Shown here one piece after another: positions 1 through 14,133 of a stretch of 42,309 nt of DNA. The stretch comes from a virus. A program made the position numbers and the translations under genes. The stretch spans positions 1 through 42,309 of the IMG/VR virus record IMGVR_UViG_3300025616_000011; one strand, 5' to 3'. A model generated the notes under the pieces. It was not told the origin of the DNA. It saw only the letters and a program-made list of their open reading frames with translations, and did not search any database. How positions within the stretch are numbered: position 1 is the stretch's first letter; each line of letters starts with the position of its first letter.

Positions 1-28
1 GCTTTGTTGATGTTTGCTACATAATAAC

Positions 29-48
29 TGGTGCCCAGAAGAGGACTC
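29..48. other. Putative phage attachment site core (tRNA-Leu 3' end)
   Basis: The bases TGGTGCCCAGAAGAGGACTC are the reverse complement of the last 20 bases of a typical bacterial tRNA-Leu gene (T-loop GAGTCC through the 3' CCA). The similarity stops at position 49, so only a tRNA fragment is present. Temperate phages commonly integrate at such tRNA 3' ends. An excisionase-like gene lies 75 bases away at the end of the leftward operon, as in lambda. No integrase is in the window; it may lie just left of position 1. Recognition of the tRNA is from memory, not a search. Confidence 0.6.
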
Positions 49-79
49 TAGCGACTTATTAAATCAATAGGTTACAGTC

Positions 80-101
80 GTTTGTCGTGATTTTGTCGTG
101 T
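80..101. repeat. Short direct repeat beside the att core
   Basis: The nonamer TTTGTCGTG occurs twice, at 80-88 and 93-101, between the tRNA fragment and the first gene. Short direct repeats beside an attachment core are often arm-type binding sites for a tyrosine integrase or its excisionase. Only the repeat itself is seen; the binding role is inferred from position. Confidence 0.35.
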
Positions 102-122
102 TCTCTTAAAAATTCCTGTAAT

Positions 123-344
123 TTACGCCGCTTTTCGTGGTCTTCCGACGGGCTTCTGAACACGATCCTCAAGCCATCGCTCAACGTCAATCATGCGCCA
201 TAATACTGTTTTGCTGTTCGGTATTAAAAGCCGGGGCGGCAAAGATTCCGGTCTGCGCGACACATCCTCCGCGATTGTTCTTTCTGTTCTGTGTAATATC
301 AGAGCTAAATCCGCAATCCTGATCGTCTTAACTGCTGCATTCAT
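123..344 (-). CDS. AlpA/excisionase-like helix-turn-helix protein
   Basis: This 73-residue basic protein has an N-terminal helix-turn-helix (about residues 8-35, VKTIRIADLALILHRTERTI) followed by W-LEDRVQKPVGRPRK. That layout is typical of AlpA or MerR-like excisionases and small prophage regulators. It is the last gene of the leftward operon and ends 75 bases from the putative att core, the place of xis in lambda-like phages. It likely binds DNA and biases recombination toward excision. A plain transcriptional regulator is an alternative. It begins four bases after the stop of the preceding gene. Confidence 0.55.
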   Translation of the reverse strand: MNAAVKTIRIADLALILHRTERTIAEDVSRRPESLPPRLLIPNSKTVLWRMIDVERWLEDRVQKPVGRPRKAA

Positions 345-1770: not shown

Positions 1771-2038
1771 GCCTATTTCCAGCTTCCATCAACTCACGCT
1801 CTTTGTCGGTGTACTTTGGCTCGTAAACGCGCGCTGAAATTACCGCGTTCTTTCGCGCCTTCTGCGCGGCATCCATCTTTGGCGAGCTGCGTTTTTGGCG
1901 CAATCCCAGCGCGATGATCTGCCTGTTCGCTACACCTGAATCGCAAAACAAAAAACCAGCTATTTCGGCAGTTGTGAATTTTCCGAACCACTTTTTGATA
2001 TTCGCGTTTTCTTCATCTGACCAGATGCGTTTTTTCAT
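1730..2038 (-). CDS. SANT/HTH-like small DNA-binding protein
   Basis: A 102-residue basic protein. Residues 4-45 (WSDEENANIKKWFGKFT, then TAEIAGFL) resemble Myb/SANT or GcrA-like helix-turn-helix modules that begin W-(T/S)-x-EE. This predicts DNA binding. The start ATG overlaps the RT stop (ATGA) and is preceded by GGAGG at good spacing inside the RT gene, so it is translationally coupled to the reverse transcriptase. Its link to the DGR may be only positional. The target is unknown. Confidence 0.55.
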   Translation of the reverse strand: MKKRIWSDEENANIKKWFGKFTTAEIAGFLFCDSGVANRQIIALGLRQKRSSPKMDAAQKARKNAVISARVYEPKYTDKERELMEAGNRLAQVSWMGVCRVS

Positions 2039-3138
2039 GATGATTTCCTCCGATAAATTTTCGTTAAACTTCCGTTAATCGTATGCCCGCGTTTGCGCAG
2101 TACGTTAGATAGCAAAATTCTTTGGTGATAGCTGTGAGTTGCCTGACGCATAAGCCCAAAGTAGCTATTCGCTGTTTTGTATAGTTCTGCGCTATCGATA
2201 GTGCTGACGCGGCGCATCGCCTCATTGATGGTGCGTTTGCGCATCGTGCGGTGCCATGGCCGGATAACCTGTCCGACAAAATCAACACCGCGAGAAATTG
2301 GCTGCAGGATTGTTTTTGATGGGTTGATGCGAGCGTGCAGCCTATCGCTCAAGAACTCTTCGATCTGCGCTTTGGCTGCGTTGAGCCATTGCGGTGATTC
2401 ATGCAGAATCAGAAAATCGTCCACATAGCGGATATAGTGGCGCGCCTGCAACTTGTGCTTACAGAACTGGTCGAGTTCATCCAGGTAAATGTTGGCGAAG
2501 AACTGGCTGCTGAGATTGCCAATTGGCAACCCGAGGTGCGCTGGGTGGTTTGTTAGCCGTTTGTGCGGCGGCACTAAGTCGAGCATGCGAGGCGACCCGC
2601 GCAGTTCGTAGTTTTGGCGCGGATCGTGAAACAGGATCGTGTCGGCCAGCTGCATCCACCACGGTTCAGTAACGCGCTTGGCAATCAACTCTCGCAGGAT
2701 GTTCTTATCGATACTGACGAAAAAATTAGCAAGGTCGAGTTTCAGGTAATACGCATGTTTGCCCCAGTTCTGAGTGATGCTGCGCACATTCGATTCAAGC
2801 CGTTTTGCGCCGTACAGCGTGCCGCGACCTGGTATGCAAGCGCAGCTATCAGCAATGAATCTGGCGTGGAAGATCGGCGCGAGGCGGTTGTAGAGAAGGT
2901 GATGCACGATGCGGTCGCGGAAGTCCGCTGCCCATACTTCGCGCGGCTTTGGTTTAGTGATGGCAAAGCAGATGCTTTTCCCTGGCTTATATGAGCCGTC
3001 TGATAGTTCATCGTGCAGACCAATCAGGTTGTGCTCAAGATTATGCTCAAAGCGTAGTGCGCTATCTGTATTGCGTTTGTGGCGTCGGCAGTCTTTGTAT
3101 GCCTCGGCCAGTAATTCGATTGAATATCCAGTATCCAT
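2035..3138 (-). CDS. Diversity-generating retroelement reverse transcriptase
   Basis: This 367-residue protein is the error-prone reverse transcriptase that copies the template RNA into mutated cDNA for the variable repeats. Polymerase motifs are visible: KLDLANFF at about 133-140 with the first catalytic Asp, GLPIGNLSSQ at 203-212, and YVDD at 238-241. The IGN-xSQ form of motif 4 marks the DGR family; group II intron and retron enzymes differ here. Length fits the family. I chose the ATG at 3138 because the RT fold starts there (MDTGYSIELLAEAY) and it lies 20 bases after the template repeat. The frame stays open upstream to 3435 through the template repeat, which I regard as non-coding for RT. 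The last gene of the DGR cassette, it overlaps the next gene by four bases. Confidence 0.93.
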   Translation of the reverse strand: MDTGYSIELLAEAYKDCRRHKRNTDSALRFEHNLEHNLIGLHDELSDGSYKPGKSICFAITKPKPREVWAADFRDRIVHHLLYNRLAPIFHARFIADSCACIPGRGTLYGAKRLESNVRSITQNWGKHAYYLKLDLANFFVSIDKNILRELIAKRVTEPWWMQLADTILFHDPRQNYELRGSPRMLDLVPPHKRLTNHPAHLGLPIGNLSSQFFANIYLDELDQFCKHKLQARHYIRYVDDFLILHESPQWLNAAKAQIEEFLSDRLHARINPSKTILQPISRGVDFVGQVIRPWHRTMRKRTINEAMRRVSTIDSAELYKTANSYFGLMRQATHSYHQRILLSNVLRKRGHTINGSLTKIYRRKSS

Positions 3139-3150
3139 AGAAGCTCTCGG

Positions 3151-3235
3151 TTGAATTTGCGGAAGGGGCGAACACGGAACTCGTTGTTCCGATTGTTGTT
3201 GTTGACGTTGCCGTTCTCGAAGTCCACTGCCCACG
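3151..3235 (-). repeat. DGR template repeat (TR)
   Basis: A 78-base core (3158-3235) is shared with VR1 and VR2 and extends to about 3151 on the 3' side. On the minus strand it contains eight AAC/AAT codons in the phase used by the variable proteins, so it reads as an Asn-rich stretch V-NNNN-R-NN-E. AAY codons are the standard DGR design: randomising their adenines gives 15 amino acids and no stops. It lies between avd and the RT gene, as in Bordetella phage BPP-1. It serves as RNA template, not as a protein gene. Confidence 0.93.
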
Positions 3236-3407
3236 ATATTCGAGCTATTCACGTTTTCAAATCGAGGCATTGCTTCAATAAGAAAACTGCGCGGAATCAT
3301 TGCGGCATACGCCGACGATATTCCTGATGCGCATGTCGGTAGGGCGAACCCTAGCGGCTCGACCAGATTCATAGCGCGTTGTCCAAATTGCCTTGGCAAA
3401 GTCGGCG

Positions 3408-3755
3408 TCAAGCGCATTCCGATTTCCTCTGCCATCCGGTAGCCTGCTTCCCAATGCTTGCCGTGATGGCTATAGCTTTCCCATACTGACCATGAGATAT
3501 AAGGCGCAAGTCAACCGCCAGGCGCAGAGACAGATTAACCGCCTCAACTTCCTGCCGCATTTTGCTCAGGATTGGCGACTTGTCCTGCGATGTATTTGCC
3601 TCGTAGGTACGCATTACCAGCCCCATGCAGCGTCTTCTCAATTCAGCGCCGAAGTCCGCTTTATAGTTTCTGGGCATGTTCGCTACGAGTTGCATCACCA
3701 GCTGTGCCAGTTGGTAAGTCGCCTTGTAAATTGCTGTGTCAGTATGGAGTGCCAT
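3408..3755 (-). CDS. avd: Avd-like DGR accessory protein (four-helix bundle)
   Basis: A 115-residue basic, almost entirely helical protein. Segments YKATYQLAQLVMQLVANM, ADFGAELRRRCMGLVMRTYE, ILSKMRQEVEAVNLSLRLAV and QYGKAIAITASIGKQATGW fit the four-helix bundle of Avd proteins, the S23-like family. Avd forms a pentamer that binds the reverse transcriptase and template RNA and is needed for mutagenic cDNA synthesis. Its place between variable gene and template repeat matches BPP-1. No clear ribosome site precedes the ATG; a 15-base hairpin lies eight bases upstream, so translation may be coupled or structure-controlled. Confidence 0.85.
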   Translation of the reverse strand: MALHTDTAIYKATYQLAQLVMQLVANMPRNYKADFGAELRRRCMGLVMRTYEANTSQDKSPILSKMRQEVEAVNLSLRLAVDLRLISHGQYGKAIAITASIGKQATGWQRKSECA

Positions 3756-3763
3756 ATTTTTAG

Positions 3764-3778
3764 CGGGCTACGCCCGCG
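3764..3778 (-). other. DGR-type hairpin/cruciform downstream of VR1
   Basis: The palindrome GCGGGC-GTA-GCCCGC (minus-strand sense) lies six bases past the VP1 stop. It has six perfect GC pairs and no U-run, so it is not an intrinsic terminator. In BPP-1 a GC-rich hairpin just downstream of the variable repeat stimulates retrohoming, and this matches it in kind and position. No similar hairpin follows VR2. Confidence 0.65.
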
Positions 3779-3784
3779 AAATTG

Positions 3785-4201
3785 TTAAATTGATGAAGCG
3801 ATGAAGCTGCGGAAGGGGCGAACACGGAACTCGCCGCCCCGATAGTAGCTGCCGACGTCGCCGTACTCGAAGTCCACTGCCCACGACCAGCCGTGATGAT
3901 GCGAGCGCGTCCAGTAAACGCTGTCCATGCCGCCGTCACACTTGAATTGCTCCCGCGCGTTGACATAGGCCAGCATGTAATCTTCCTGCTCGCCGGTATT
4001 CCAATCGTCATAGCCGTTGATTTCTTTGAACTGTGCGGATTCCGCTGCGGCGAAATTCTTCCCAGTAAGGTCGTAGTCAATACCGGCAGGCGTGACGACG
4101 TAGCGTTCCTCACCGTCTATGATGCGCATGCCACAATAAACGCCGCCTTGTTCTGCCCAAAGTTCGCCGATTTTTGGTGCTGTGATTTTCTTTTCGTTCA
4201 T
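3785..4201 (-). CDS. DGR variable protein 1 (DUF1566-like C-type lectin fold)
   Basis: A 138-residue protein whose last third ends in the variable repeat. The C-terminus reads VYWTRS, then SWAVDFEYG and EFRVRPFRSF, the YW-S/T plus W-x-(V/D)-F-x-NG plus VRP-R pattern of DUF1566 (Lcl C-terminal) domains, which adopt the C-type-lectin fold used by DGR targets. Variable residues are Y, D, GSYY and GG, each at an Asn position of the template. I start at MNEKKITAPK (4201), preceded by AAGGAG at good spacing. It has no signal peptide or membrane segment. It follows VP2 by 32 bases. The ligand is unknown. The longer frame to 4330 is an artefact reading through VR2. Confidence 0.88.
   Translation of the reverse strand: MNEKKITAPKIGELWAEQGGVYCGMRIIDGEERYVVTPAGIDYDLTGKNFAAAESAQFKEINGYDDWNTGEQEDYMLAYVNAREQFKCDGGMDSVYWTRSHHHGWSWAVDFEYGDVGSYYRGGEFRVRPFRSFIASSI
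3801..3885 (-). repeat. Variable repeat 1 (VR1)
   Basis: Aligned with the template at a fixed offset of 650 bases, the 78-base core has 11 differences, all at template adenines. Extending to 3801 adds three more, also at adenines. The flanks GAGTTCCGTGTTCGCC and GTGGGCAGTGGACTTC are unchanged. VR1 covers the last part of VP1. Confidence 0.93.
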
Positions 4202-4233
4202 GGTGATTCTCCTTTTAAAAATTGATGAATGGG

Positions 4234-4797
4234 TTAATAGGTAAATCTGCGGAAGGGGCGAACACGGAACTCGGTGAGACGAAGGTTGTCGTAGACGTTG
4301 CCGTCCTCGAAGTCCACTGCCCACGCACAATCATTCCCGCGTGTGGTGCTAGTCCAGTAATAGTCTTTCGGGTTGAACAGGTGCGGAACATTTGCCAGCG
4401 CAACCATCAGCTCACGGCGTGCAGGCAGATAAAAGTCACAATGCCCGCTACGCTCATAATTCGCAGCTAGGTCTGCTGCTGGGGATTTCCCGCGCAGCGT
4501 ATTGGTGCTCGACAGGCCGTCCCATTGCGACAGATCGCCTTTATGATCACGGCCAAATTCCACCATGCCGATGTCCATTTCCTCGGCGACGATCAGTCCG
4601 TACAGAACTTTATCGTCGCCAAGAATGTCGCCGACATAGATGCCACCCTCTGTTGTCAGGTATTCGCCAATGCGTGGGCGGCGGTTGCCGGTTGCACTGG
4701 ATTGCTGGCGTAGGCTGTCGAGCAGGTTGCGTGCAACAATTTCAGCTGGTAGCGCGATTTTTGCACCGAAGCCAAGATCAAATTCAATTGAGTTCAT
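4234..4797 (-). CDS. DGR variable protein 2 (DUF1566-like C-type lectin fold)
   Basis: A 187-residue protein with a fuller DUF1566 domain than VP1. Residues about 60-85 hold GGIYVGDILGDDKVLYGLIV, then DWNT-like core motifs, FYLPARRELMVAL, YYWTSTTRGN and AWAVDFEDG followed by EFRVRPFRRF at the C-terminus. Variable positions carry D, N, YDNL and LT. The start ATG at 4797 has AAGGA seven to eight bases upstream and follows the preceding gene stop by 23 bases; a further in-frame ATG at 4836 overlaps that gene and is less likely. No export signal is visible, so a cytoplasmic or virion-associated role are both open. It is transcribed first in the cassette. Confidence 0.88.
   Translation of the reverse strand: MNSIEFDLGFGAKIALPAEIVARNLLDSLRQQSSATGNRRPRIGEYLTTEGGIYVGDILGDDKVLYGLIVAEEMDIGMVEFGRDHKGDLSQWDGLSSTNTLRGKSPAADLAANYERSGHCDFYLPARRELMVALANVPHLFNPKDYYWTSTTRGNDCAWAVDFEDGNVYDNLRLTEFRVRPFRRFTY
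4248..4325 (-). repeat. Variable repeat 2 (VR2)
   Basis: Aligned with the template at an offset of 1090 bases, the core shows nine differences: eight at template adenines and one at a G (CGG to CGT, silent for Arg). It differs from VR1 at most variable codons, so the two targets were diversified separately. Confidence 0.92.
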
Positions 4798-4820
4798 GAT
4801 ATTTCCTTGAGTAATTGGGC

Positions 4821-5627
4821 TTATTTTTGATTCCACACGGCGCCGCGCACCGCATCGCCGACTGGAACCATGGCGAACACTTCCGCTTTGCCGACGAACT
4901 TAGCCGCGCGCATGGCCTGCTGACGTGCTTTCTCCAGCGACTTGACCACAAACGGCTTGTGCTTCGGGATGCGGATCAGGAATTGCTCGACGGTGACTTG
5001 CCGCTCTTGTTTTTCTGCATACTGCATAGACTCAAACGCTATACGGGTTATTTCGCCATCCTTTGATGCGACGACTTCTCTTAGGCGCGATGCTTCGTCG
5101 TCAGCTTTTGAAAGGGCGCGTGAGATACGTAGCTTTTCATCTAGCAGTTTCTCGGTATCGTCACGCCATGTTCGATTCTCCGCCTGCGCGCCTGCAAGCT
5201 CATCGTGCAGCCGCGCATTCTCTTTCGCACCATCCTCGACCAGCTTGCGCAGCTCCTCCAATTCACCGGTTGATGCAGGGAAAATCTTATGGATTACCTG
5301 GTCAATCGTTACAGCTGGTTTTTCAGTTGTTAAATTCGGCTTAACATCTGGCGCAAATGGTGAAGACTCCTTATCGGTTGCCGCATCCGACTTGATGCGT
5401 GCTTTGCCCAGATCAGTAATGCTGTAGGCCTGCTTTCTTGTAATCCCGTCCATGCGGCTGGTCAGCAAACCATCCTGTTTAGCCTGATAGCAGTTGTCGC
5501 CAATTTGCTTTTCGGTAAAATCCGACAGAGAATCGATCATGTCCGCCACGGTCAGATCAGGTTTACGCGCGAGCAGGGCGAGGATCTGAATGCGGATGCC
5601 CTTCATTGGTTTTGCGGTGTCTTTCAT
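4821..5627 (-). CDS. Winged-helix plus coiled-coil early protein
   Basis: A 268-residue protein. Residues 8-75 (IRIQILALLARKPDLTVADMIDSL through QAYSITDLGKARI) read like a winged helix-turn-helix with a C-terminal wing. A linker follows, then a long heptad-rich coiled coil (about 120-205). The C-terminal 60 residues are basic (IPKHKPFVVKSLEKARQQAM). This suggests a dimeric DNA-binding protein; the partner is unknown. It overlaps the acyl-carrier-like gene by four bases and immediately precedes the DGR cassette in the same operon. Confidence 0.6.
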   Translation of the reverse strand: MKDTAKPMKGIRIQILALLARKPDLTVADMIDSLSDFTEKQIGDNCYQAKQDGLLTSRMDGITRKQAYSITDLGKARIKSDAATDKESSPFAPDVKPNLTTEKPAVTIDQVIHKIFPASTGELEELRKLVEDGAKENARLHDELAGAQAENRTWRDDTEKLLDEKLRISRALSKADDEASRLREVVASKDGEITRIAFESMQYAEKQERQVTVEQFLIRIPKHKPFVVKSLEKARQQAMRAAKFVGKAEVFAMVPVGDAVRGAVWNQK

Positions 5628-5857
5628 ATCATCACCTTCACCATATAGTTAATAACGTCCTGCACAGACTTCCATTTTTCTGCATCAGCATCCTCTATCA
5701 CGATGTCGAAATAATCCTCAATCATCATCGCCAGTTCGCACCGATCAATCTCGTCCATTTCGAGAGAGTGGAGCGTGTCAGATAGATTTATGTGCTCTGG
5801 ATCGCGGCCGGTCTGATCTGCGATACATGCGATTACCTCGGCTTGCATATTGTTCAT
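5624..5857 (-). CDS. Acyl-carrier-protein-like protein lacking the carrier serine
   Basis: A 77-residue acidic protein that aligns over its length with bacterial acyl carrier protein. The segments MDEIDRCELAMMIEDYFDI and AEKWKSVQDVINYM match helix II and the helix III/IV region. In true ACP the helix II motif is DSL, and its serine carries 4'-phosphopantetheine. Here it reads DEI, so the attachment residue is Glu. It therefore cannot carry an acyl chain the usual way and may act as a structural mimic or adaptor. It is joined to the KTSC gene by a one-base TAATG overlap. Confidence 0.65.
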   Translation of the reverse strand: MNNMQAEVIACIADQTGRDPEHINLSDTLHSLEMDEIDRCELAMMIEDYFDIVIEDADAEKWKSVQDVINYMVKVMI

Positions 5858-6108
5858 TACGACACTTTCACAAACGGGTGTTTTTCAACATGCGGCTTGA
5901 TGTGCTTTCCGAAGTGCGAGCCAATCGAATCCGACTTCTTGAATGCGGCAAAATCTTCCGATGTGAAATTTTCATAGTGATACACGCTGCCGGGGGTTCC
6001 ATCACGGCGCGGTGAGAACTGGATAGCAAGTGTGTTCGTTTCAGGGTGGTGACCAATAGCCGCGATCTGGCTTGATTCAACCGGTGTTAATGCGATTTGC
6101 TTGTTCAT
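5857..6108 (-). CDS. KTSC-domain protein
   Basis: An 83-residue protein matching the small KTSC domain: VESSQIAAIGHHPETNTLAI, then SVYHYENFTSEDFAAFKKSDS and IGSHFGKHIKP. KTSC domains are common in phages and next to varied enzymes; their biochemical role is not established to my knowledge. The ATG follows AAGGA with good spacing. It is in the early operon between the exonuclease and the ACP-like gene. Confidence 0.75.
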   Translation of the reverse strand: MNKQIALTPVESSQIAAIGHHPETNTLAIQFSPRRDGTPGSVYHYENFTSEDFAAFKKSDSIGSHFGKHIKPHVEKHPFVKVS

Positions 6109-6135
6109 GTTTTTTCCTTTTATGTTGAATGGTGG

Positions 6136-7905
6136 TTAAGCGGCTTCAGTCGCAAATTGAATGTCACCCTTGAACTCGGCGATAATCCAGTCGAGTGCGG
6201 TTTCTGCACTACAGTTGTGCCGCGCTGATATGGCCTCGAGCAGTTGGGCGCGTGTTGGGCGCACCAGCTGCGCAGTAGGTTTGATTTGCGTCACGGTTGC
6301 AGCTGGGCGTTCCTTTTCCTTGCATTGAACGATACGGCGGCGCTCTTCGATTGCGACCAGCTCGGCGTCACGCTCCACTTTTGCTGCCGCCTGCTCGGCT
6401 GCAACCTGCATCGCGTAGCGTGCTTCTTCCCTGGCCTTTGCCGCATCGTGTTGCGCTTTGATTGCGGCAACATCGGCGTCATGCTTCGCTTTTGCTTCAG
6501 ATTCCATCTTGGCGCGCTCTGCCGCGATCAGTGCGTCAGCTTCGGCTTTAGCCTTACGGTCTGCCTCTGCTTGCATGGCGATGCGCTGCGCTTCCAGCTT
6601 GGCGGCTTCGGCAGCTTTATGGTCATCAATACGACGTTGCACGATGGCCTGAAACGCTTCCAGCCCGTTGCTGGTGATGACGGCTTGCAGGTCGCTGAAC
6701 AGAAAACCGTAACCGGCAGATGACTCTTTGCACCATGAAAGTTTCGCGTGAATGTCTGCTGCCAGTGCGTCGGCCTCCATCTTCCCGTTGCGTAGTGCAG
6801 TGCCGGCAGCTTCGCGCAGGCTTGCAATAGTCTTTTTCCCTTTGATTGCACTGGCAAAATCAGGACCGGCAATAGTTATTACAATCGGCTTAACTTCATT
6901 CATGAGAATGCGGCAGTGCTCGACAAATTCAGCCTTTGCATTCGTCACAATCTCAATCCTGATCGATTCCTTGCGCGCCTTTACCATCTTCTCCAGCATC
7001 AGGCGGGTGGTGCGCGCTGTGTCAGCGTAGAGCTTCACTGTCTTGCGCATGTCGTCAATGTCTGCCGTCTGTGCCAGTGCGTTTGCTTCGGCGTATTCAA
7101 GCGCATCCTGAGCGTTTTGCAACGTCTTGATTGCCGACTCTGCATCGGCAAAGCCTTGGTCATCGGAAGGCTCTTTGTTGATCGCAGATACAAACTCATT
7201 CAGGCGGGCACCGAACTTTTGCAAATTGCTGATCAGGCTGATTGAGCCATTAACCTGGATAGACAGGGCGGGGAGGTCTTGCACTGGCGCGGCGATTATT
7301 TCGGGCGCGGCTTCTACGTGCTGGTAGTTTGCGAGGTCAAGTTGGAATTGCTTCCAGATCGAGACGACAGCCTGCTTGCGCTCATCTGTTGTTTCGTACC
7401 AGCAATAAAGATGATTCACTTCTGTGCCGTCTGAAATCATAAACAAGCACTTATCTGCGCCACTGACGAGCAACTGCTGATCCATCTGCATTTTGTAGTG
7501 CTCATCGAGATTGCCGGACTCGATTTGGCGGATCAGTTTTTCAGAAATTAACTTGTGCTCAAAAATAATATCGCCGGTGAAGTTGATGCCGTCCAGTGAT
7601 GCCGATAATGGCACGCCGTCAATTTCTAGCGACATAACCATTGGCGAAAGATCGTCACCAATAACGCTCTCAGCAATTGGGCGCGCGCCAGCTTCTGAGG
7701 CATGCCCTCTATCGAACAAACCTTGAGTGAAGTCGCTAACCTCTTTACTGATGCCGGTCGCTTTTTCCTTCAGCAGATCGCCGCGTGTTGTGTAGTTGCT
7801 AGTTCCGGCTGCTGCCGACAACTCACTAGCGCCAAAGTGCTTTGCGCGAAATTCATGCCATGACAAACTGCCTTGCGGCAGATTATGTGATTGTGGTTTA
7901 TTCAT
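6136..7905 (-). CDS. YqaJ-type (lambda exonuclease family) recombinase nuclease with coiled-coil extension
   Basis: A 589-residue protein. The N-terminal 200 residues are a YqaJ/lambda-exonuclease nuclease: LSWHEFRAKHFGASELSAA, SLDGI (Asp 105), then IIFEHKLIS with E116 and K118, and MQMDQQL with Q140 and Q143. It should degrade one strand of duplex ends to make 3' single strands for RecT. Residues about 210-400 are helical. About 430-535 is a long Ala/Lys/Glu coiled coil, followed by a small C-terminal domain (TRAQLLEAISARHNCSAE). Family members usually end near 200-330 residues, so the extension is unusual. I start at 7905 (TAATG overlap with recT, GGAG upstream) over the in-frame ATG at 7920. 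Confidence 0.85.
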   Translation of the reverse strand: MNKPQSHNLPQGSLSWHEFRAKHFGASELSAAAGTSNYTTRGDLLKEKATGISKEVSDFTQGLFDRGHASEAGARPIAESVIGDDLSPMVMSLEIDGVPLSASLDGINFTGDIIFEHKLISEKLIRQIESGNLDEHYKMQMDQQLLVSGADKCLFMISDGTEVNHLYCWYETTDERKQAVVSIWKQFQLDLANYQHVEAAPEIIAAPVQDLPALSIQVNGSISLISNLQKFGARLNEFVSAINKEPSDDQGFADAESAIKTLQNAQDALEYAEANALAQTADIDDMRKTVKLYADTARTTRLMLEKMVKARKESIRIEIVTNAKAEFVEHCRILMNEVKPIVITIAGPDFASAIKGKKTIASLREAAGTALRNGKMEADALAADIHAKLSWCKESSAGYGFLFSDLQAVITSNGLEAFQAIVQRRIDDHKAAEAAKLEAQRIAMQAEADRKAKAEADALIAAERAKMESEAKAKHDADVAAIKAQHDAAKAREEARYAMQVAAEQAAAKVERDAELVAIEERRRIVQCKEKERPAATVTQIKPTAQLVRPTRAQLLEAISARHNCSAETALDWIIAEFKGDIQFATEAA

Positions 7906-8903
7906 TATCTTTGCTCCCATGAATTGATTGTTTCGATTACTTCATCTGAAAGGCTGAATTTCGGTGTTAGAAAGTTGATCAAGTCTTTCGCCGATTTGTC
8001 GCCTTGCTGGATTTGCGATTTCGTACTGAATGTTTTTACAACTCCGTCCGCATCAACCTTATCTGTTGCGTATTTCTTGGCCAGATCATCCATGCTCAAT
8101 TCAGGAAGGCGCGAAACCTCTTCGGCTGCATCCTCATCACTGACCGGCACCCACTCACCAGCGATTGCATCGTTTACGTTCAATCCCTGACTACCGGTTG
8201 CAGCTGCGTTGTCCAGCTCAACGGCACGGGAAAGTTCCGTGCTCATCGGCATGTACTTCAGCACCTGGAGAAGAACAACTTTGCGCGCATACATTTCCAT
8301 GTTCTCGAATGCGTAGTGCTTATCGCCGACCTTGTTGTATTTCTGAAGGTGGCGCTTAATTCGTGCGATAGACCAGACTTCAGTGATTGCGGTATCAGCC
8401 CCTTTCACCCGGCCGCACGCATAAACATGGGTTGGCTCACCCTCTCCGTGCAGATCGCCGGGGATATGGACGCACTTCGGGTCATCGCCAAGCTGGTACT
8501 CGAACCGATCACCTGCGAACACTGCACCAGTCCATACGGTTGCCTGACCGGAGCGAGACACCAGATCAACCAGGCCTTTCCAGCCAGGGATAAATTGGCA
8601 TTCCCAAGTTTTCTGCCAAACATTGCCAACCTTCGTGTTCTTTGCGTAAGGTAGCAAGTAAGCGCGACCCAACGTGTCCGGCTCAAGACCAAGTTGAGCG
8701 GCCTGGATAACTGCGGCAAACACGCTGCGCGGATCGCATTCAGCAAGCTTTGGCGTGCGGCGAAAGGCTGTCAGCGCAATGCGGCTCATGCGGTCGCCAT
8801 TCAGGTGAGCGGGGAGGGCACGCTGTATCTCAGGCAAAAAAGCCTTCAGCATTGATGGGAAGTCTTTCGGCTGACGATCTTGTGATGTAACTGCTGTACT
8901 CAT
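7905..8903 (-). CDS. recT: RecT-family single-strand annealing protein
   Basis: A 332-residue annealase that coats single-stranded DNA and pairs it with complementary DNA, working with the adjacent exonuclease. Family motifs include SVFAAVIQAAQLGLEPDTLG, AYLLPYAKN, ECQFIPGWKGLVDLVSRSG and MYARKVVLLQVLKYMP. The acidic C-terminal tail (about 250-332) is typical. The start overlaps the preceding small gene by four bases. The exonuclease-annealase pair parallels lambda Exo-Beta and is expressed from the same leftward operon as the DGR. Confidence 0.92.
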   Translation of the reverse strand: MSTAVTSQDRQPKDFPSMLKAFLPEIQRALPAHLNGDRMSRIALTAFRRTPKLAECDPRSVFAAVIQAAQLGLEPDTLGRAYLLPYAKNTKVGNVWQKTWECQFIPGWKGLVDLVSRSGQATVWTGAVFAGDRFEYQLGDDPKCVHIPGDLHGEGEPTHVYACGRVKGADTAITEVWSIARIKRHLQKYNKVGDKHYAFENMEMYARKVVLLQVLKYMPMSTELSRAVELDNAAATGSQGLNVNDAIAGEWVPVSDEDAAEEVSRLPELSMDDLAKKYATDKVDADGVVKTFSTKSQIQQGDKSAKDLINFLTPKFSLSDEVIETINSWEQR

Positions 8904-9076
8904 GATTTTCTCCCGTGTTTTTTAAATTCAATTACACCGATGTGGCAGGTGTTTTCCTCGATATCTGTTTTAGTGCTACAGGGCTGCCCGACCATCCACG
9001 ACTGCCAGCCTTGCCATTCCTGCTCTGTCACGGCTGGTGCGCTGTAAAACAACGTCAGCGCTATCAGCATCCTCAT
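8900..9076 (-). CDS. Small exported or membrane-associated protein
   Basis: A 58-residue ORF whose N-terminus (MRMLIALTLFYSAPAVT) resembles a signal peptide with a possible cleavage after APA. The mature part is Trp-rich (EWQGWQSWM) with two cysteines (QPC and NTC) and a basic tail. It overlaps the upstream gene and recT by four bases each (ATGA), strong evidence of a translated gene in this tightly coupled operon. Function unknown. Confidence 0.6.
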   Translation of the reverse strand: MRMLIALTLFYSAPAVTEQEWQGWQSWMVGQPCSTKTDIEENTCHIGVIEFKKHGRKS

Positions 9077-9384
9077 GGCCGCACAACCATCAGCAGCACG
9101 ATTGCAATCACCATCACGCCCCAGAACACTGGCGCGAACTCCGTTTCACGTTCATCAAAGATGCTGTCAGAGTAGGGCGCTTGCACTGCGCGACCGATAC
9201 GGTCATAAGCGTGCCAGCGGCGTTTCTGTGCAATGCTGCGAATCTCATACGATGTTTTTGCTCGCAAATCTTCTTGTGCGTTCAATTGCATGTTGCGAAC
9301 GTGATGTATTGCTGTTCTGCCCATCGCATCTACAAGCTCATGCACCTTATGGCTTGCTGCATCAAACTGCGTGGCGGCGATCAT
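9073..9384 (-). CDS. Tail-anchored small membrane protein
   Basis: A 103-residue protein with a soluble helical region (AASHKVHELVDAM, then MQLNAQEDLRAKTSYEI) and a single C-terminal membrane segment (VFWGVMVIAIVLLMVV) ending the protein. I choose the ATG at 9384 because it overlaps the previous stop by four bases; an upstream in-frame Met at 9426 is less likely. It probably sits in the inner membrane facing the cytoplasm. Function unknown. Confidence 0.6.
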   Translation of the reverse strand: MIAATQFDAASHKVHELVDAMGRTAIHHVRNMQLNAQEDLRAKTSYEIRSIAQKRRWHAYDRIGRAVQAPYSDSIFDERETEFAPVFWGVMVIAIVLLMVVRP

Positions 9385-9563: not shown

Positions 9564-10049
9564 TCTGCTATCTCCTGTTTTATTGGGTGATCCGTTACGC
9601 GGATCGGTTCGGCTGGTTTCTTCAGTGCTTCCAGCGGCCTGCATGTAAGGGTTCATGCTTCCGGCGGGACTTTCACCAGCTTGCTTGTCACGCTCTACCG
9701 TGCTTGCCCGGAGATGCCTCCGAAATAGTTGTTGGTGGCCGGTGCTGAGTAACTCCGGCATTCCCCCGCCCATACGTGTCAGGGGATAGGCTACGTTCCA
9801 CATCAGGTCAGCTCCTGAATTCACCAACAAGGCTGATCTGTCACGAGTCTATTGCTCCAGCGCGTCCGCTATTGCTCACCACTGCCCACAGATCAGGCTT
9901 GTTGATCCTCGTCTCTCCGAAGCGTCACTCCATTTTTAACCATCAGTCTCGTGCGCAGAGTTTTGCACCTCATTACGGGTATGGTTCCCGCCCCATCGTT
10001 ATCCGCCAGTCATAGGGGTATGCACTTATCGTTACAGCGGATGCAGAAT
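9564..10049 (-). ncRNA. Candidate large structured non-coding RNA
   Basis: A 486-base gap in an operon whose genes otherwise overlap by a few bases. It holds a run of hairpins (plus-strand coordinates): 9589-9605 GATCCG/CGGATC, 9611-9635 GGCTGG/CCAGC, 9641-9658 GCATG/CATGC, 9689-9702 CACG/CGTG, 9709-9722 CGGAG/CTCCG, 9738-9759 GCCGG/CCGGC, and a 17-pair stem with one mismatch at 9825-9841/9888-9904. Single-stranded links contain GGTGAAAGTCCCGCCGG-type purine-rich text seen in large ribozyme-like RNAs. Orientation is inferred from the operon. Possible classes are an OMEGA/HEARO-like RNA, an intron relic or a large ornate phage RNA. I cannot assign a family. Confidence 0.5.
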
Positions 10050-10346
10050 CTACAAATCCAATTCCTTCACGTCATATTCCAAATCTTCCATCGCGGCCAT
10101 CGCGTCTTCGATTAATTCCAGCTTGACGCGCATCCAGCCTTCTTCATTCTTGCTATGCGCACCGCATGACCAGTCGCCAGACTCAAGCGCTGCAACCACC
10201 TTGCGATAACCTGCAATCAGTTTGCGAACGCTCTCTGGTATGCCGTCTGGCGTTTCGTCATCCTCTTGTGAGGCAAGGTAGGCGTCTAACTGGCGCTCAC
10301 GGTATTTGTCCTCTGCGCTATCGCCATAAATTGAACATGCACTCAT
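10050..10346 (-). CDS. Acidic hypothetical early protein
   Basis: A 98-residue, strongly acidic protein (DAYLASQEDDETPDGIPESV, then a C-terminal acidic helix ELIEDAMAAMEDLEYDVKEL). It has an AGGAG ribosome site six bases before the ATG. It is the first well-supported gene of the leftward operon, the place of early lambda regulators, but shows no antiterminator-like basic motif. Acidic small phage proteins can be DNA mimics that inhibit host nucleases; here that is only a possibility. Confidence 0.6.
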   Translation of the reverse strand: MSACSIYGDSAEDKYRERQLDAYLASQEDDETPDGIPESVRKLIAGYRKVVAALESGDWSCGAHSKNEEGWMRVKLELIEDAMAAMEDLEYDVKELDL

Positions 10347-10654: not shown

Positions 10655-10683
10655 ATTAAACACTATGTTTAAATTTAAGTCAA
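10655..10683 (-). promoter_or_regulatory. Leftward early promoter (PL)
   Basis: On the minus strand TTGACT (10678-10683) and TTTAAT (10655-10660) are separated by 17 bases. The boxes and spacing equal those of PR. The operator at 10656-10672 overlaps the -10 box, so the repressor would block polymerase directly. Confidence 0.75.
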
Positions 10684-10696
10684 ACAAATTGTTTAA
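10656..10696. promoter_or_regulatory. OL-like operator pair
   Basis: Two copies of TTAAACA-N3-TGTTTAA: 10656-10672 (perfect palindrome) and 10680-10696 (one mismatch, TCAAACA). Centres are 24 bases apart, about two helical turns, as are two of the sites by the repressor gene. They are likely binding sites for the CI-like and Cro-like proteins. Confidence 0.75.
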
Positions 10697-10756: not shown

Positions 10757-10780
10757 AAAAAAACCCGCCGGAGCGGGTTG
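10757..10780 (-). terminator. Intrinsic terminator of the immunity operon
   Basis: On the minus strand AACCCGCTCCGGCGGGTT is followed by a run of T. It lies 25 bases after the last cargo gene and before PL, so it ends the repressor-cargo transcript and isolates it from the leftward early operon. Confidence 0.8.
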
Positions 10781-13157: not shown

Positions 13158-13820
13158 TTACATTACTTCGCCTTTGAAAATAACAACCCCGCAAATTGTA
13201 GCGTTGTTGTTAATCTTGATTATTGGCTCCGGCCACGCCGGATTTAGTGCTTGCAGGTAAAGCGTTTCCCCTTCGATTATGAGTTGTTTAAAAGTGGCTT
13301 CATTGGAATTATCTAGCCGCACCACCACTAAGGATTTATGAATGTACGCTCGCTCTGGGTCGATAAAAATTAAATCGCCATCCCTGAATGAGCGCTCTCC
13401 ATGCGGGTTATACATGGATGAGCCGCGCACTCGCAGAACATAAGTGTGTACGCTGTGTTTTACGGGGCACGGCAACCAGTCCTCGACCTCTCCTTGTGCG
13501 AAGTTGTCTGTAATTGCGCACATCGCTCCAGCTTGAACCCAACTAATTAAAGGGACTCGTCCTTTTATACTTGGTGCAGGCTCGGTATTTGGGTGGCGCG
13601 CAAAGTCTTCGCGATAATTTCCATCTATTCCGGTTGCTAGCCAATTAGCATCGACAAAGAAGATGTTCTGAGCTTTTATCATTCCATTTTTTGACACGCC
13701 TCGAGATTCCCAGTTATTTACTGTCTGCGGGGTTTCGTCCATCGCTTTTGCGACATTGGTTTGCCCTATTACGCCTTTCTTTTCAGCGGCAGCGTAAAGC
13801 CTCTCCATAGTTTTGTGCAT
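13158..13820 (-). CDS. CI/LexA-type phage repressor (S24 peptidase)
   Basis: A 220-residue repressor. Residues 1-60 form a helix-turn-helix (QTNVAKAMDETPQTVNNWES). The C-terminal half is an S24 autoprotease: cleavage site Ala97-Gly98 in SWVQAGAM, nucleophile Ser135 in VRGSSMYNP and Lys178 in TFKQL. It should keep the prophage silent by binding the nearby palindromes and be inactivated through RecA-stimulated self-cleavage after DNA damage. I start at the ATG at 13820; the longer frame begins with an in-frame TTG at 13835. It is divergent from cro with three operators between. Confidence 0.92.
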   Translation of the reverse strand: MHKTMERLYAAAEKKGVIGQTNVAKAMDETPQTVNNWESRGVSKNGMIKAQNIFFVDANWLATGIDGNYREDFARHPNTEPAPSIKGRVPLISWVQAGAMCAITDNFAQGEVEDWLPCPVKHSVHTYVLRVRGSSMYNPHGERSFRDGDLIFIDPERAYIHKSLVVVRLDNSNEATFKQLIIEGETLYLQALNPAWPEPIIKINNNATICGVVIFKGEVM

Positions 13821-13837: not shown

Positions 13838-13893
13838 TTAAACAAACTGTTGTTACACAAAATGTTTGACTAAAAATTAAACATGGTGTTTAA
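13838..13893. promoter_or_regulatory. OR-like triple operator
   Basis: Three copies of TTAAACA-N3-TGTTTAA lie between repressor and cro: 13838-13854 (right half degenerate), 13853-13869 (one mismatch per half) and 13877-13893 (perfect). Centres are 15 and 24 bases apart. The perfect site overlaps the PR -10 box. This is the expected bidirectional control region of a lambda-like switch. Confidence 0.8.
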
Positions 13894-13894
13894 T
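13866..13894 (+). promoter_or_regulatory. Rightward early promoter (PR)
   Basis: TTGACT (13866-13871) and TTTAAT (13889-13894) with a 17-base spacer, the same boxes and spacing as PL. The cro ATG is only five bases past the -10 box, so transcription should start at about the A of the ATG. Confidence 0.78.
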
Positions 13895-13899
13895 GCGTC

Positions 13900-14133
13900 A
13901 TGGACGATAAACAACTAATTACCACACTTGGCGGAGCTACTAGGCTTGCTGAACTGCTTGGCTTTGATAAAAAAACAGGCGGGGCGCAGCGCGTGCATAA
14001 CTGGAAAGAGCGCGGCATCCCTTCTTTCATAAAGCTTCAGAGGCCTGATCTGTTCGCCACTCCAAAGCGCGCCAAACGCACCGCAAAGAACCTCCCCGCC
14101 GAGCAATCGGCCACTGACCAAGGAATGCCATGA
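13900..14133 (+). CDS. Cro-like/YdaS-type regulator
   Basis: A 77-residue basic protein with a helix-turn-helix (LITTLGGATRLAELLGF, then GGAQRVHNWKERGIPSFI), the pattern of YdaS/Cro-type antirepressors whose second helix is followed by V-x-NW-x-x-RGIP. It is divergent from the repressor and would bind the same operators to favour lytic growth. The promoter geometry predicts a leaderless mRNA. A polar tail rich in basic residues follows the fold. Confidence 0.85.
   Translation: MDDKQLITTLGGATRLAELLGFDKKTGGAQRVHNWKERGIPSFIKLQRPDLFATPKRAKRTAKNLPAEQSATDQGMP

Follow-up and report, generated by a model that had tools for sequence, protein, structure and literature searches.

The diversity-generating retroelement (DGR) described here appears to serve an early, CI-repressed left operon of its temperate phage rather than the tail, and its two targets, VP1 and VP2, may be early intracellular diversified binders, a reading from sequence whose chances are judged to be even. 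The window, the whole stretch of DNA that was analysed, consisted of 42,309 nucleotides (positions 1 to 42,309 of IMG/VR virus record IMGVR_UViG_3300025616_000011). Its minus strand carries a complete DGR with a reverse transcriptase (RT), a template repeat (TR), Avd and two variable repeats (VRs). The RT was 93% identical to those of the IMG/VR locus L009 and of a prophage in a Gallionella MAG (L029).

Table 1. Features of the DGR and of the early region in the window
Feature	Position	Strand	Evidence
DGR reverse transcriptase, 367 aa, ATG at 3138	2035..3138	-	PF00078 (RVT_1) E 1.5e-18; phrog_1423 reverse transcriptase E 1.3e-124
TR core, 21 adenines	3158..3236	-	repeat family D1, TR/VR alignment
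RT-15 structured RNA (Rfam RF03018), directly 5' of TR, between Avd and TR	3233..3417	-	120.4 bits, gathering score 82, E 7e-28
Avd (accessory variability determinant), 115 aa	3408..3755	-	PF22296 bAvd above cut-off; phrog_3206 Avd of DGR E 8e-30
Short hairpin GCGGGC-GTA-GCCCGC just past VP1 stop	3764..3778	-	6-bp stem
VP1, DGR target 1, 138 aa, C-type lectin fold only, VR1 at end	3785..4201	-	AlphaFold pLDDT 93.5; best PDB match 8q4e E 2e-5
VR1 core	3808..3886	-	11/11 substitutions at TR adenines
VP2, DGR target 2, 187 aa	4234..4797	-	AlphaFold pLDDT 83.5; phrog_4245 C-terminus E 4e-21
VR2 core	4248..4325	-	8/9 substitutions at TR adenines
HTH/coiled-coil protein, between exonuclease and VP2	4821-5627	-	small co-directional gene
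Acyl-carrier-like protein, between exonuclease and VP2	5624-5857	-	small co-directional gene
KTSC protein, between exonuclease and VP2	5857-6108	-	small co-directional gene
RecE/YqaJ-type exonuclease	6136..7920	-	PF09588; phrog_7655 E 1e-148
RecT single-strand annealing protein	7905..8903	-	PF03837 E 7e-34; phrog_148
pL/oL: promoter TTGACT-17-TTTAAT (10655-10683) overlapped by two repressor palindromes (10656-10672, 10680-10696)	10655..10696	-	
Intrinsic terminator ending cI-side transcription unit, just before oL	10762..10779	-	7-bp stem, T-rich tail
CI-type repressor, probable ATG 13820, longest ORF to 13835	13158..13820	-	phrog_4 transcriptional repressor E 8e-39
pR/oR: three repressor palindromes and promoter TTGACT-17-TTTAAT (13866-13894), between cI and cro	13838..13894	+	
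Cro-like gene, downstream of pR/oR	13900-14133		

The presence of a real DGR in the window could be confirmed far beyond chance. A DGR-type RT, Avd, a structured RNA flanking the TR and a VR at the C-terminus of a target with a C-type lectin fold were all present, and the differences between TR and VR were restricted to TR adenines save for one VR2 site (19 of 20 substitutions in the window; binomial p of 5e-7 for VR1 and 2e-4 for VR2). The short hairpin past the VP1 stop is a possible retrohoming stem-loop; of the 205 clade VRs, 37 had a hairpin of at least 7 bp on their 3' side, compared with 2 of 205 shuffled ones. The TR core was identical in L009 although the RT had diverged by 12%, and VR1 of the window differed from its L009 counterpart at 14 of 20 TR-adenine positions and at none of the 48 others, while the remainder of the VR1-bearing gene was approximately 13% diverged. 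As judged from this comparative footprint, the VRs appear to have been rewritten since close relatives with an identical TR split.

Both targets start at corrected ATG codons (4201 for VP1 and 4797 for VP2), each with a ribosome-binding site. VP1 contained no domain beyond the lectin fold and no N-terminal attachment domain, while the AlphaFold model of VP2 gave a putative strand-strand-helix segment (residues 1-40) followed by a C-type lectin fold (residues 40-186). The initial annotation had called both targets DUF1566-like, and this was borne out by the models: the sequence match to Lcl_C/DUF1566 (PF07603) was weak and under the Pfam cut-off, but the best structural match of both was the C-terminal domain of Legionella Lcl (8q4e; for VP2, Z 11.5 and rmsd 3.5 over 119 residues). 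Lcl, a larger protein, is exported and displayed at the surface, and every close structure solved for the fold (those of Lcl and of fimbrial and eukaryotic lectins) belongs to a protein that is secreted or at the surface, which counts against an intracellular role. In VP1 and VP2 no export signal was evident by a simple hydropathy check, in line with the initial annotation. Export or lipoprotein display was rejected, as no convincing signal could be found among 201 targets and the weak hydropathy matches were amphipathic N-termini. PADLOC gave no match for VP1 or VP2. An intracellular job, also proposed at the outset, is favoured by the missing signal peptide, by the lectin-fold-only VP1 and by carriers with both contractile and non-contractile tails, but it is unproven, and early transcription does not forbid later incorporation into virions or release at lysis.

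VP1 and VP2 lie downstream of the RecT and exonuclease genes on the same strand, as first described, with overlaps or gaps of approximately 20-35 nt. The exact composite of promoter and palindromes occurred in the window only at pL and pR (0 expected in shuffles), and the pL promoter is overlapped by the same CI operators as pR, as in lambdoid phages. Together with the terminator that ends the cI unit, a single site of a class that was near shuffle frequency, these twin operators indicate that VP1 and VP2 belong to a CI-repressed early operon; the earlier assignment to a PL-driven operon was thus upheld, with clade-wide conservation in addition. A dedicated late promoter before VP2, one of two findings named in advance as together speaking for ordinary adhesins, did not stand out: there was no minus-strand promoter-like site at that place, and promoter-like sites in the window were no commoner than in shuffles. 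Rfam search and folding of the leader at 9.6-10.06 kb gave nothing. The left operon of the window includes RecT and the exonuclease, and the record ends before any integrase.

A survey of 95 related DGR loci with RTs at least 59% identical (the clade) revealed that the window is not a one-off and that this predicted arrangement is shared across a broad family of prophages in Betaproteobacteria and Pseudomonas; carriers include Janthinobacterium, Duganella, Rugamonas and Pseudomonas helleri. Early-region markers were present in 82 of the 95 loci, with a same-strand repressor upstream in 49 and a same-strand integrase downstream in 62, and no same-strand tail gene was detected at any of them. 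All 205 VRs of 97 loci were located upstream of the RT and co-directional with it; 203 were in small stand-alone DUF1566-like ORFs (median 165 aa), and 98.6% of the TR-to-VR substitutions in the clade (2394/2429) fell at adenines. In a sample of 143 neighbours the commonest families were integrases, C5 methylases, ParB-like proteins, repressors and RecE, and no tail family was among the top 25. Operator-like palindromes that also occur in the cI-cro gap preceded the first VR at 23 of the 46 loci that could be tested. Own matches were obtained in 24 loci compared to 5-11 with swapped natural regions; the comparison with shuffled DNA looked much stronger (24 and 4 loci), and the weaker swapped-region figure is the one relied on. 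Aurca01 and Medea1 carry same-family genes at the same place without a DGR.

The targets had been described as 20 kb or more from the fibres. This is true of the linear record, where the distance is approximately 34 kb, although that record may represent a prophage that has been permuted or cut. In Magia, a sister phage, approximately 11.5 kb separates the fibre from the nearest target, which is on the other strand, and the intervening stretch contains integrase and lysis genes. What counts is the separate, oppositely transcribed operon rather than the distance. The placement outside the tail module was sustained, since neither target in the window is encoded there as a tail protein, as BPP-1-type tail tropism would have it, and no VR was found in the tail fibres or tail module of the window or in the tail modules of seven sister genomes that are complete or nearly so. 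These results bear on the possibility that VP1 and VP2 are accessory virion adhesins, made early and built into tails or bound to fibres as receptor-binding tips, so that the DGR would serve host recognition. The VR-free fibres, the separate CI-controlled operon on the opposite strand and the lack of an attachment domain in VP1 make this rather unlikely, as does the association of the same cassette with unlike tails: the window (sheath) and Magia have contractile tails, while Cruim01, Haboob and phPA-G are annotated with siphophage-type tails, which argues against one conserved docking site. The adhesin reading nevertheless draws weight from outside the clade, where the RT family serves tails. 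More distant relatives (RT 55% and less) occur in tail or late modules, including L016 beside a tape measure gene (target of 327 aa) and L017 beside a baseplate wedge gene (fibre-like target of 618 aa that has this DUF1566 domain at its C-terminus); six outgroup phage DGRs were all in tail or late modules, and DUF1566 relatives occur in fibre-like phage proteins and in the QHHSV-1 tail region. The RT tree requires a single change between tail and early operon, although the branch is weak (41/0) and L016 and L017 are not firmly placed; the tree is consistent with one move between tail and early operon, with no polarity claimed.

Prophage defence or superinfection exclusion, in which diversified proteins made by the lysogen would sense or block incoming phages, was considered distinctly improbable. 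In the window the terminator and the CI-operated pL separate cI from the targets, which disfavours lysogenic expression behind cI, and the operator-like sites ahead of the first VR in the clade also count against it, even though in several sisters (Magia gp57, Cruim01) a third target lies close downstream of the repressor gene. As a precedent for such a role, DGR-diversified putative antigen sensors tied to conflict systems have been proposed in Thiohalocapsa and other multicellular bacteria (PMC10907252), and these share diversified lectin folds, sometimes as a short CLec-only target. They belong to a cellular DGR lineage and are fused to or beside NACHT/MoxR/peptidase conflict modules, unlike the window, where no effector, adapter, NACHT or MoxR module was found in the targets or adjoining operon genes and no partner was conserved in the clade.

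Lambdoid phages are known to have an accessory region that extends from the recombination genes to int, and neighbouring genes vary widely at these loci, as would be expected if the DGR were passive cargo held there only through tolerated insertion, with proteins of no early role. This is very improbable given that essentially all sampled members have the same location and co-direction, that the TR is conserved while the VRs are rewritten, and that two or more targets occur in 85 of 97 loci.

The suggestion that RecT and the exonuclease help cDNA integration was not supported, as recombination-type genes (RecT/Erf/Bet/exonuclease/SSB) were near only 27 of 95 clade DGRs, a likely undercount, as the search was seed-based and covered flanks of 10 kb. 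A lambdoid-type left early operon is in any case the usual place for such genes. RecT-assisted integration was rejected as the main reason for the location because recombinases are not constant neighbours. It is most improbable that the position mainly serves the retroelement, with recombinases and replication raising cDNA incorporation and target function secondary. RecT/Erf/Bet do share the operon in the window and several sisters (QDWS, Magia, Haboob), and retrohoming in E. coli is dependent on the orientation of replication and restricted by ExoI (PMC12875486); on the other hand, DGRs of tail modules operate with no recombinase next to them, and the BPP-1 DGR reconstituted in E. coli functions from DGR parts alone (PMC12875486).

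Compared with the BPP-1 DGR (mtd/avd/brt), the window has the same parts in the same order, namely a target with a C-terminal VR, Avd, TR and RT, and the same adenine-specific diversification of a lectin fold. The BPP-1 target is a receptor-binding tail protein encoded in the tail module, whereas the window has two small stand-alone early-operon proteins. Burkholderia phage Magia (MT701587; PMC7883833) belongs to the same clade (RT 64%); two lectin-fold targets, gp47 and gp57, are annotated in the interval from the repressor to the integrase, and this analysis added another ORF with a VR. In the accessible text of its announcement the targets appear solely as short reading frames, a change of host range is suggested, and neither early-operon control nor the clade-wide pattern is discussed (PMC7883833). 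Gut prophages of four species have a second, remote VR near counter-defence genes (PMC12629997), likewise outside the tail and near methyltransferases, whereas here an entire large clade of proteobacterial phages has its VRs in the early operon and none was found in tails.

The sequence shows that the adenine positions rewritten by RT, Avd and TR-RNA are in the 3' ends of the two lectin-fold genes, and that these genes are oriented for transcription away from pL, behind the recombination genes. Under the preferred reading of VP1 and VP2 as early intracellular binders, CI would leave oL upon induction or infection, pL would fire and VP1 and VP2 would be made early in the cytoplasm, acting as binders with a ligand-contacting face that the DGR randomises. 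Their ligand would most likely be a fast-changing protein of the host or a competitor (host defence, other mobile element), and the repertoire may then comprise diversified counter-defence or host-takeover factors. As no conserved partner gene (toxin, effector) was found beside the cassette across the clade, counter-defence is read from position only.

A large DGR survey reported that viral targets of three phage DGR clades were mostly tail proteins and linked phage DGRs to host range (PMC8144416). A large proteobacterial clade with small, early, CI-controlled targets points to a different phage use of targeted hypermutation and suggests that phages diversify proteins working inside the cell. 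We tentatively propose, at somewhat below an even chance, that a widespread temperate-phage lineage turned hypermutation away from host recognition and towards intracellular conflict, with a repertoire of early, DGR-diversified lectin-fold binders directed at host defences or competing elements. The idea is directly testable with culturable lysogens, an inducible operon and small soluble-looking targets suited to pull-downs. Should the targets prove to bind proteins of host defence, these phages would hold a diversifying counter-immune repertoire.

The 42,309-bp virus record represents a temperate, contractile-tailed phage, in which the diversity-generating retroelement (DGR) was located among the early left genes. 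Comparison of the template repeat (TR) with the variable repeats of its two targets, VR1 in VP1 (138 aa) and VR2 in VP2 (187 aa), revealed 20 core differences in total, 19 of which fell on TR adenines. No further VRs could be found in the rest of the window, tail fibres included. An acyl-carrier-protein-like gene (PF00550) of the early operon overlapped both of its flanking genes. The HTH/excisionase-like gene was the last before the record end (window 1-123), and the integrase, the next gene expected from sister phages, was missing beyond it; therefore, the left end of the window has probably been cut.

Positions of the DGR, early-operon and control features in the window
Feature	Position	Strand
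Sheath, baseplate and fibre genes		plus
CI-type repressor and early left genes		minus
RecT, RecE/YqaJ exonuclease, three small genes, VP2, VP1, Avd (accessory variability determinant), Rfam RT-15 RNA, TR, RT (reverse transcriptase), in this order	from pL (10.68 kb) towards base 1	minus
TTAAACAnnnTGTTTAA, two copies	10656-10696	
TTAAACAnnnTGTTTAA, one copy	13877-13893	
Two weaker palindrome copies	13838-13869	
Leftward promoter TTGACT-17-TTTAAT	10655-10683	
Rightward promoter TTGACT-17-TTTAAT	13866-13894	
Terminator ending the cI-side unit, just ahead of oL	10779-10762	
Stretch (~450 nt) between pL and the recombination genes	9600-10060	
PF00550 gene	5624-5857	
HTH/excisionase-like gene	123-344	minus

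The palindrome TTAAACAnnnTGTTTAA occurred three times with at most one mismatch, compared to zero copies expected from shuffled sequences. The rightmost copy and the two weaker copies formed an oR-like triplet between the repressor and Cro-like genes. Each palindrome cluster overlapped a promoter with identical hexamers and spacing, and this composite was unique to the two sites in the window. Together with the terminator, the predicted arrangement corresponds to the lambdoid pL/pR layout, which would make VP2 and VP1 part of an early operon repressed by CI. The initial annotation had assigned the targets to a PL-driven operon instead of the tail module, and this location was upheld by the twin promoters with shared operators, the terminator before oL and the clade-wide position of the DGR. 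A role of the diversified proteins in lysogenic defence is disfavoured, as oL and the terminator count against it. The stretch following pL had no long minus-strand ORF, so it probably belongs to the early leader and may contain an element for antitermination or another leader function; Rfam gave no match there and its folding energy was not unusual.

The nearest RTs (~93% identity) belonged to one IMG/VR record and one Gallionella MAG prophage, while temperate Shewanella, Burkholderia, and Pseudomonas phages carried relatives with 60-65% identity. GTDB genomes contributed 281 RT relatives, of which 80 were kept. When the window was compared with the related locus L009, the RT nucleotide sequences diverged by 12% and the TR was identical over 90 nt. 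Of the 20 TR-adenine positions, 14 differed in VR1 and 10 in VR2; of the 48 others, none and 2 did, respectively. The target genes outside the VRs were ~13-17% different. These patterns indicate that both lineages overwrote their VRs from the shared TR. Across 97 loci with RT identities of 45% or more, all 205 VRs were upstream of the RT on the same strand, and 85 loci carried at least two. Hairpins of at least 7 bp followed 37 of the 205 VRs vs 2 of 205 in shuffles; the hairpin of the window VR1 was 6 bp.

DUF1566-like ORFs (median 165 aa) held 203 of the 205 VRs, nearly always C-terminally, and no convincing signal peptides were found in such ORFs of the 97 loci. The VP1 model (pLDDT 93.5) consisted of a C-type lectin fold alone, and that of VP2 (pLDDT 83.5) added an N-terminal strand-strand-helix segment. 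The best solved-structure match of both was the C-terminal domain of Legionella Lcl (VP2, Z 11.5, 3.5 A over 119 residues; VP1, Foldseek E 2e-5). Among related P. syringae phages (L004, L024, and L028), Cruim01 carried DUF1566, Avd and RT genes, whereas Aurca01 and Medea1 had other genes in the Avd/RT place, providing a natural DGR-plus vs DGR-minus comparison. Aurca01 and Medea1 had related DUF1566 genes in the corresponding position, and their annotated stretch included no Avd or RT gene; thus, proteins of the target family seem useful without diversification.

At least one early marker was in place at 82 of the 95 clade loci (RT at least 59% identical to that of the window), namely a repressor upstream (49), an integrase downstream (62) or a recombination-type gene (27). 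By the seeds used, none of the 95 had a same-strand tail gene near the DGR. The commonest neighbours in a sample of 143 ORFs from 28 loci were integrases, C5 methylases, ParB-like proteins, repressors, and RecE/YqaJ exonucleases, with no tail family among the 25 commonest. The VRs of seven sister genomes, complete or nearly so, were confined to the early segment. Of 46 testable loci, 23 had operator-like palindromes common to the cI-cro gap and the region ahead of the first VR, and the distance to that VR could be as short as 350-600 nt; the operator test gave 24 loci with matches vs 5-11 in swapped controls. At loci with the RT at 10001 (e.g., L046, L058, L074, L107), a remote VR-bearing gene could lie within ~350-600 nt of an operator-like site, so pL transcription may reach diversified targets before most other genes. 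A C5 cytosine methylase was often directly downstream of the RT (15 loci; e.g., L009:11361-11804, L002:4264-5313). A third VR-like match, lacking annotation, was noted in Shewanella phage QDWS (L115:20695-21132); it fell in a small early-operon gene between repressor C and RecT.

Outside the clade, DGRs of more distant loci adjoined a tape measure (L016, RT 55%, target 327 aa), a baseplate wedge (L017, RT 47%, target 618 aa) or tail-fibre genes (L018, RT 40%). The L017 target joined a long fibre-like N-terminal part to the same C-terminal domain as the clade targets. Tail or late modules also held the DGRs of BalMu-1, phiARM81mr, Bise, Lagaffe, and VP58.5, the last being the least certain placement as its annotation lists only numbered gp proteins; the same was true of BPP-1, in contrast to the early left operon of the window. 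One tail/early state change sufficed on the RT tree, with a weak separating branch (41/0) and 1-3 changes in bootstraps; hence, the tree is compatible with one move into the early operon but does not prove it. A global survey found the viral targets of its DGR clades 1, 4, and 6 to be mostly tail proteins (PMC8144416), and the announcement of Burkholderia phage Magia reports a DGR whose targets are two short frames (PMC7883833). Other reports describe a second VR near counter-defence genes in four gut prophage species (2025; PMC12629997) and propose cellular antigen-sensor DGRs (PMC10907252). Passages of open-licence papers located by term search contained no description of a phage clade with early-operon DGR targets.

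Direct sequence and model evidence exists for the DGR parts, adenine bias, lectin fold, operon, operators and clade-wide location. VP1 and VP2 may be virion accessories, a less likely but serious alternative. Counter-defence or takeover is suggested by the early position of the targets, the absence of export signals, a lectin fold that stands alone, the occurrence with different kinds of tail, and the many methylases and other early genes nearby. Release of CI would give VP1 and VP2 early timing, and the proteins would act in the cytoplasm, binding ligands through a diversified face; the targets may thereby serve the phage in counter-defence or takeover of the host.
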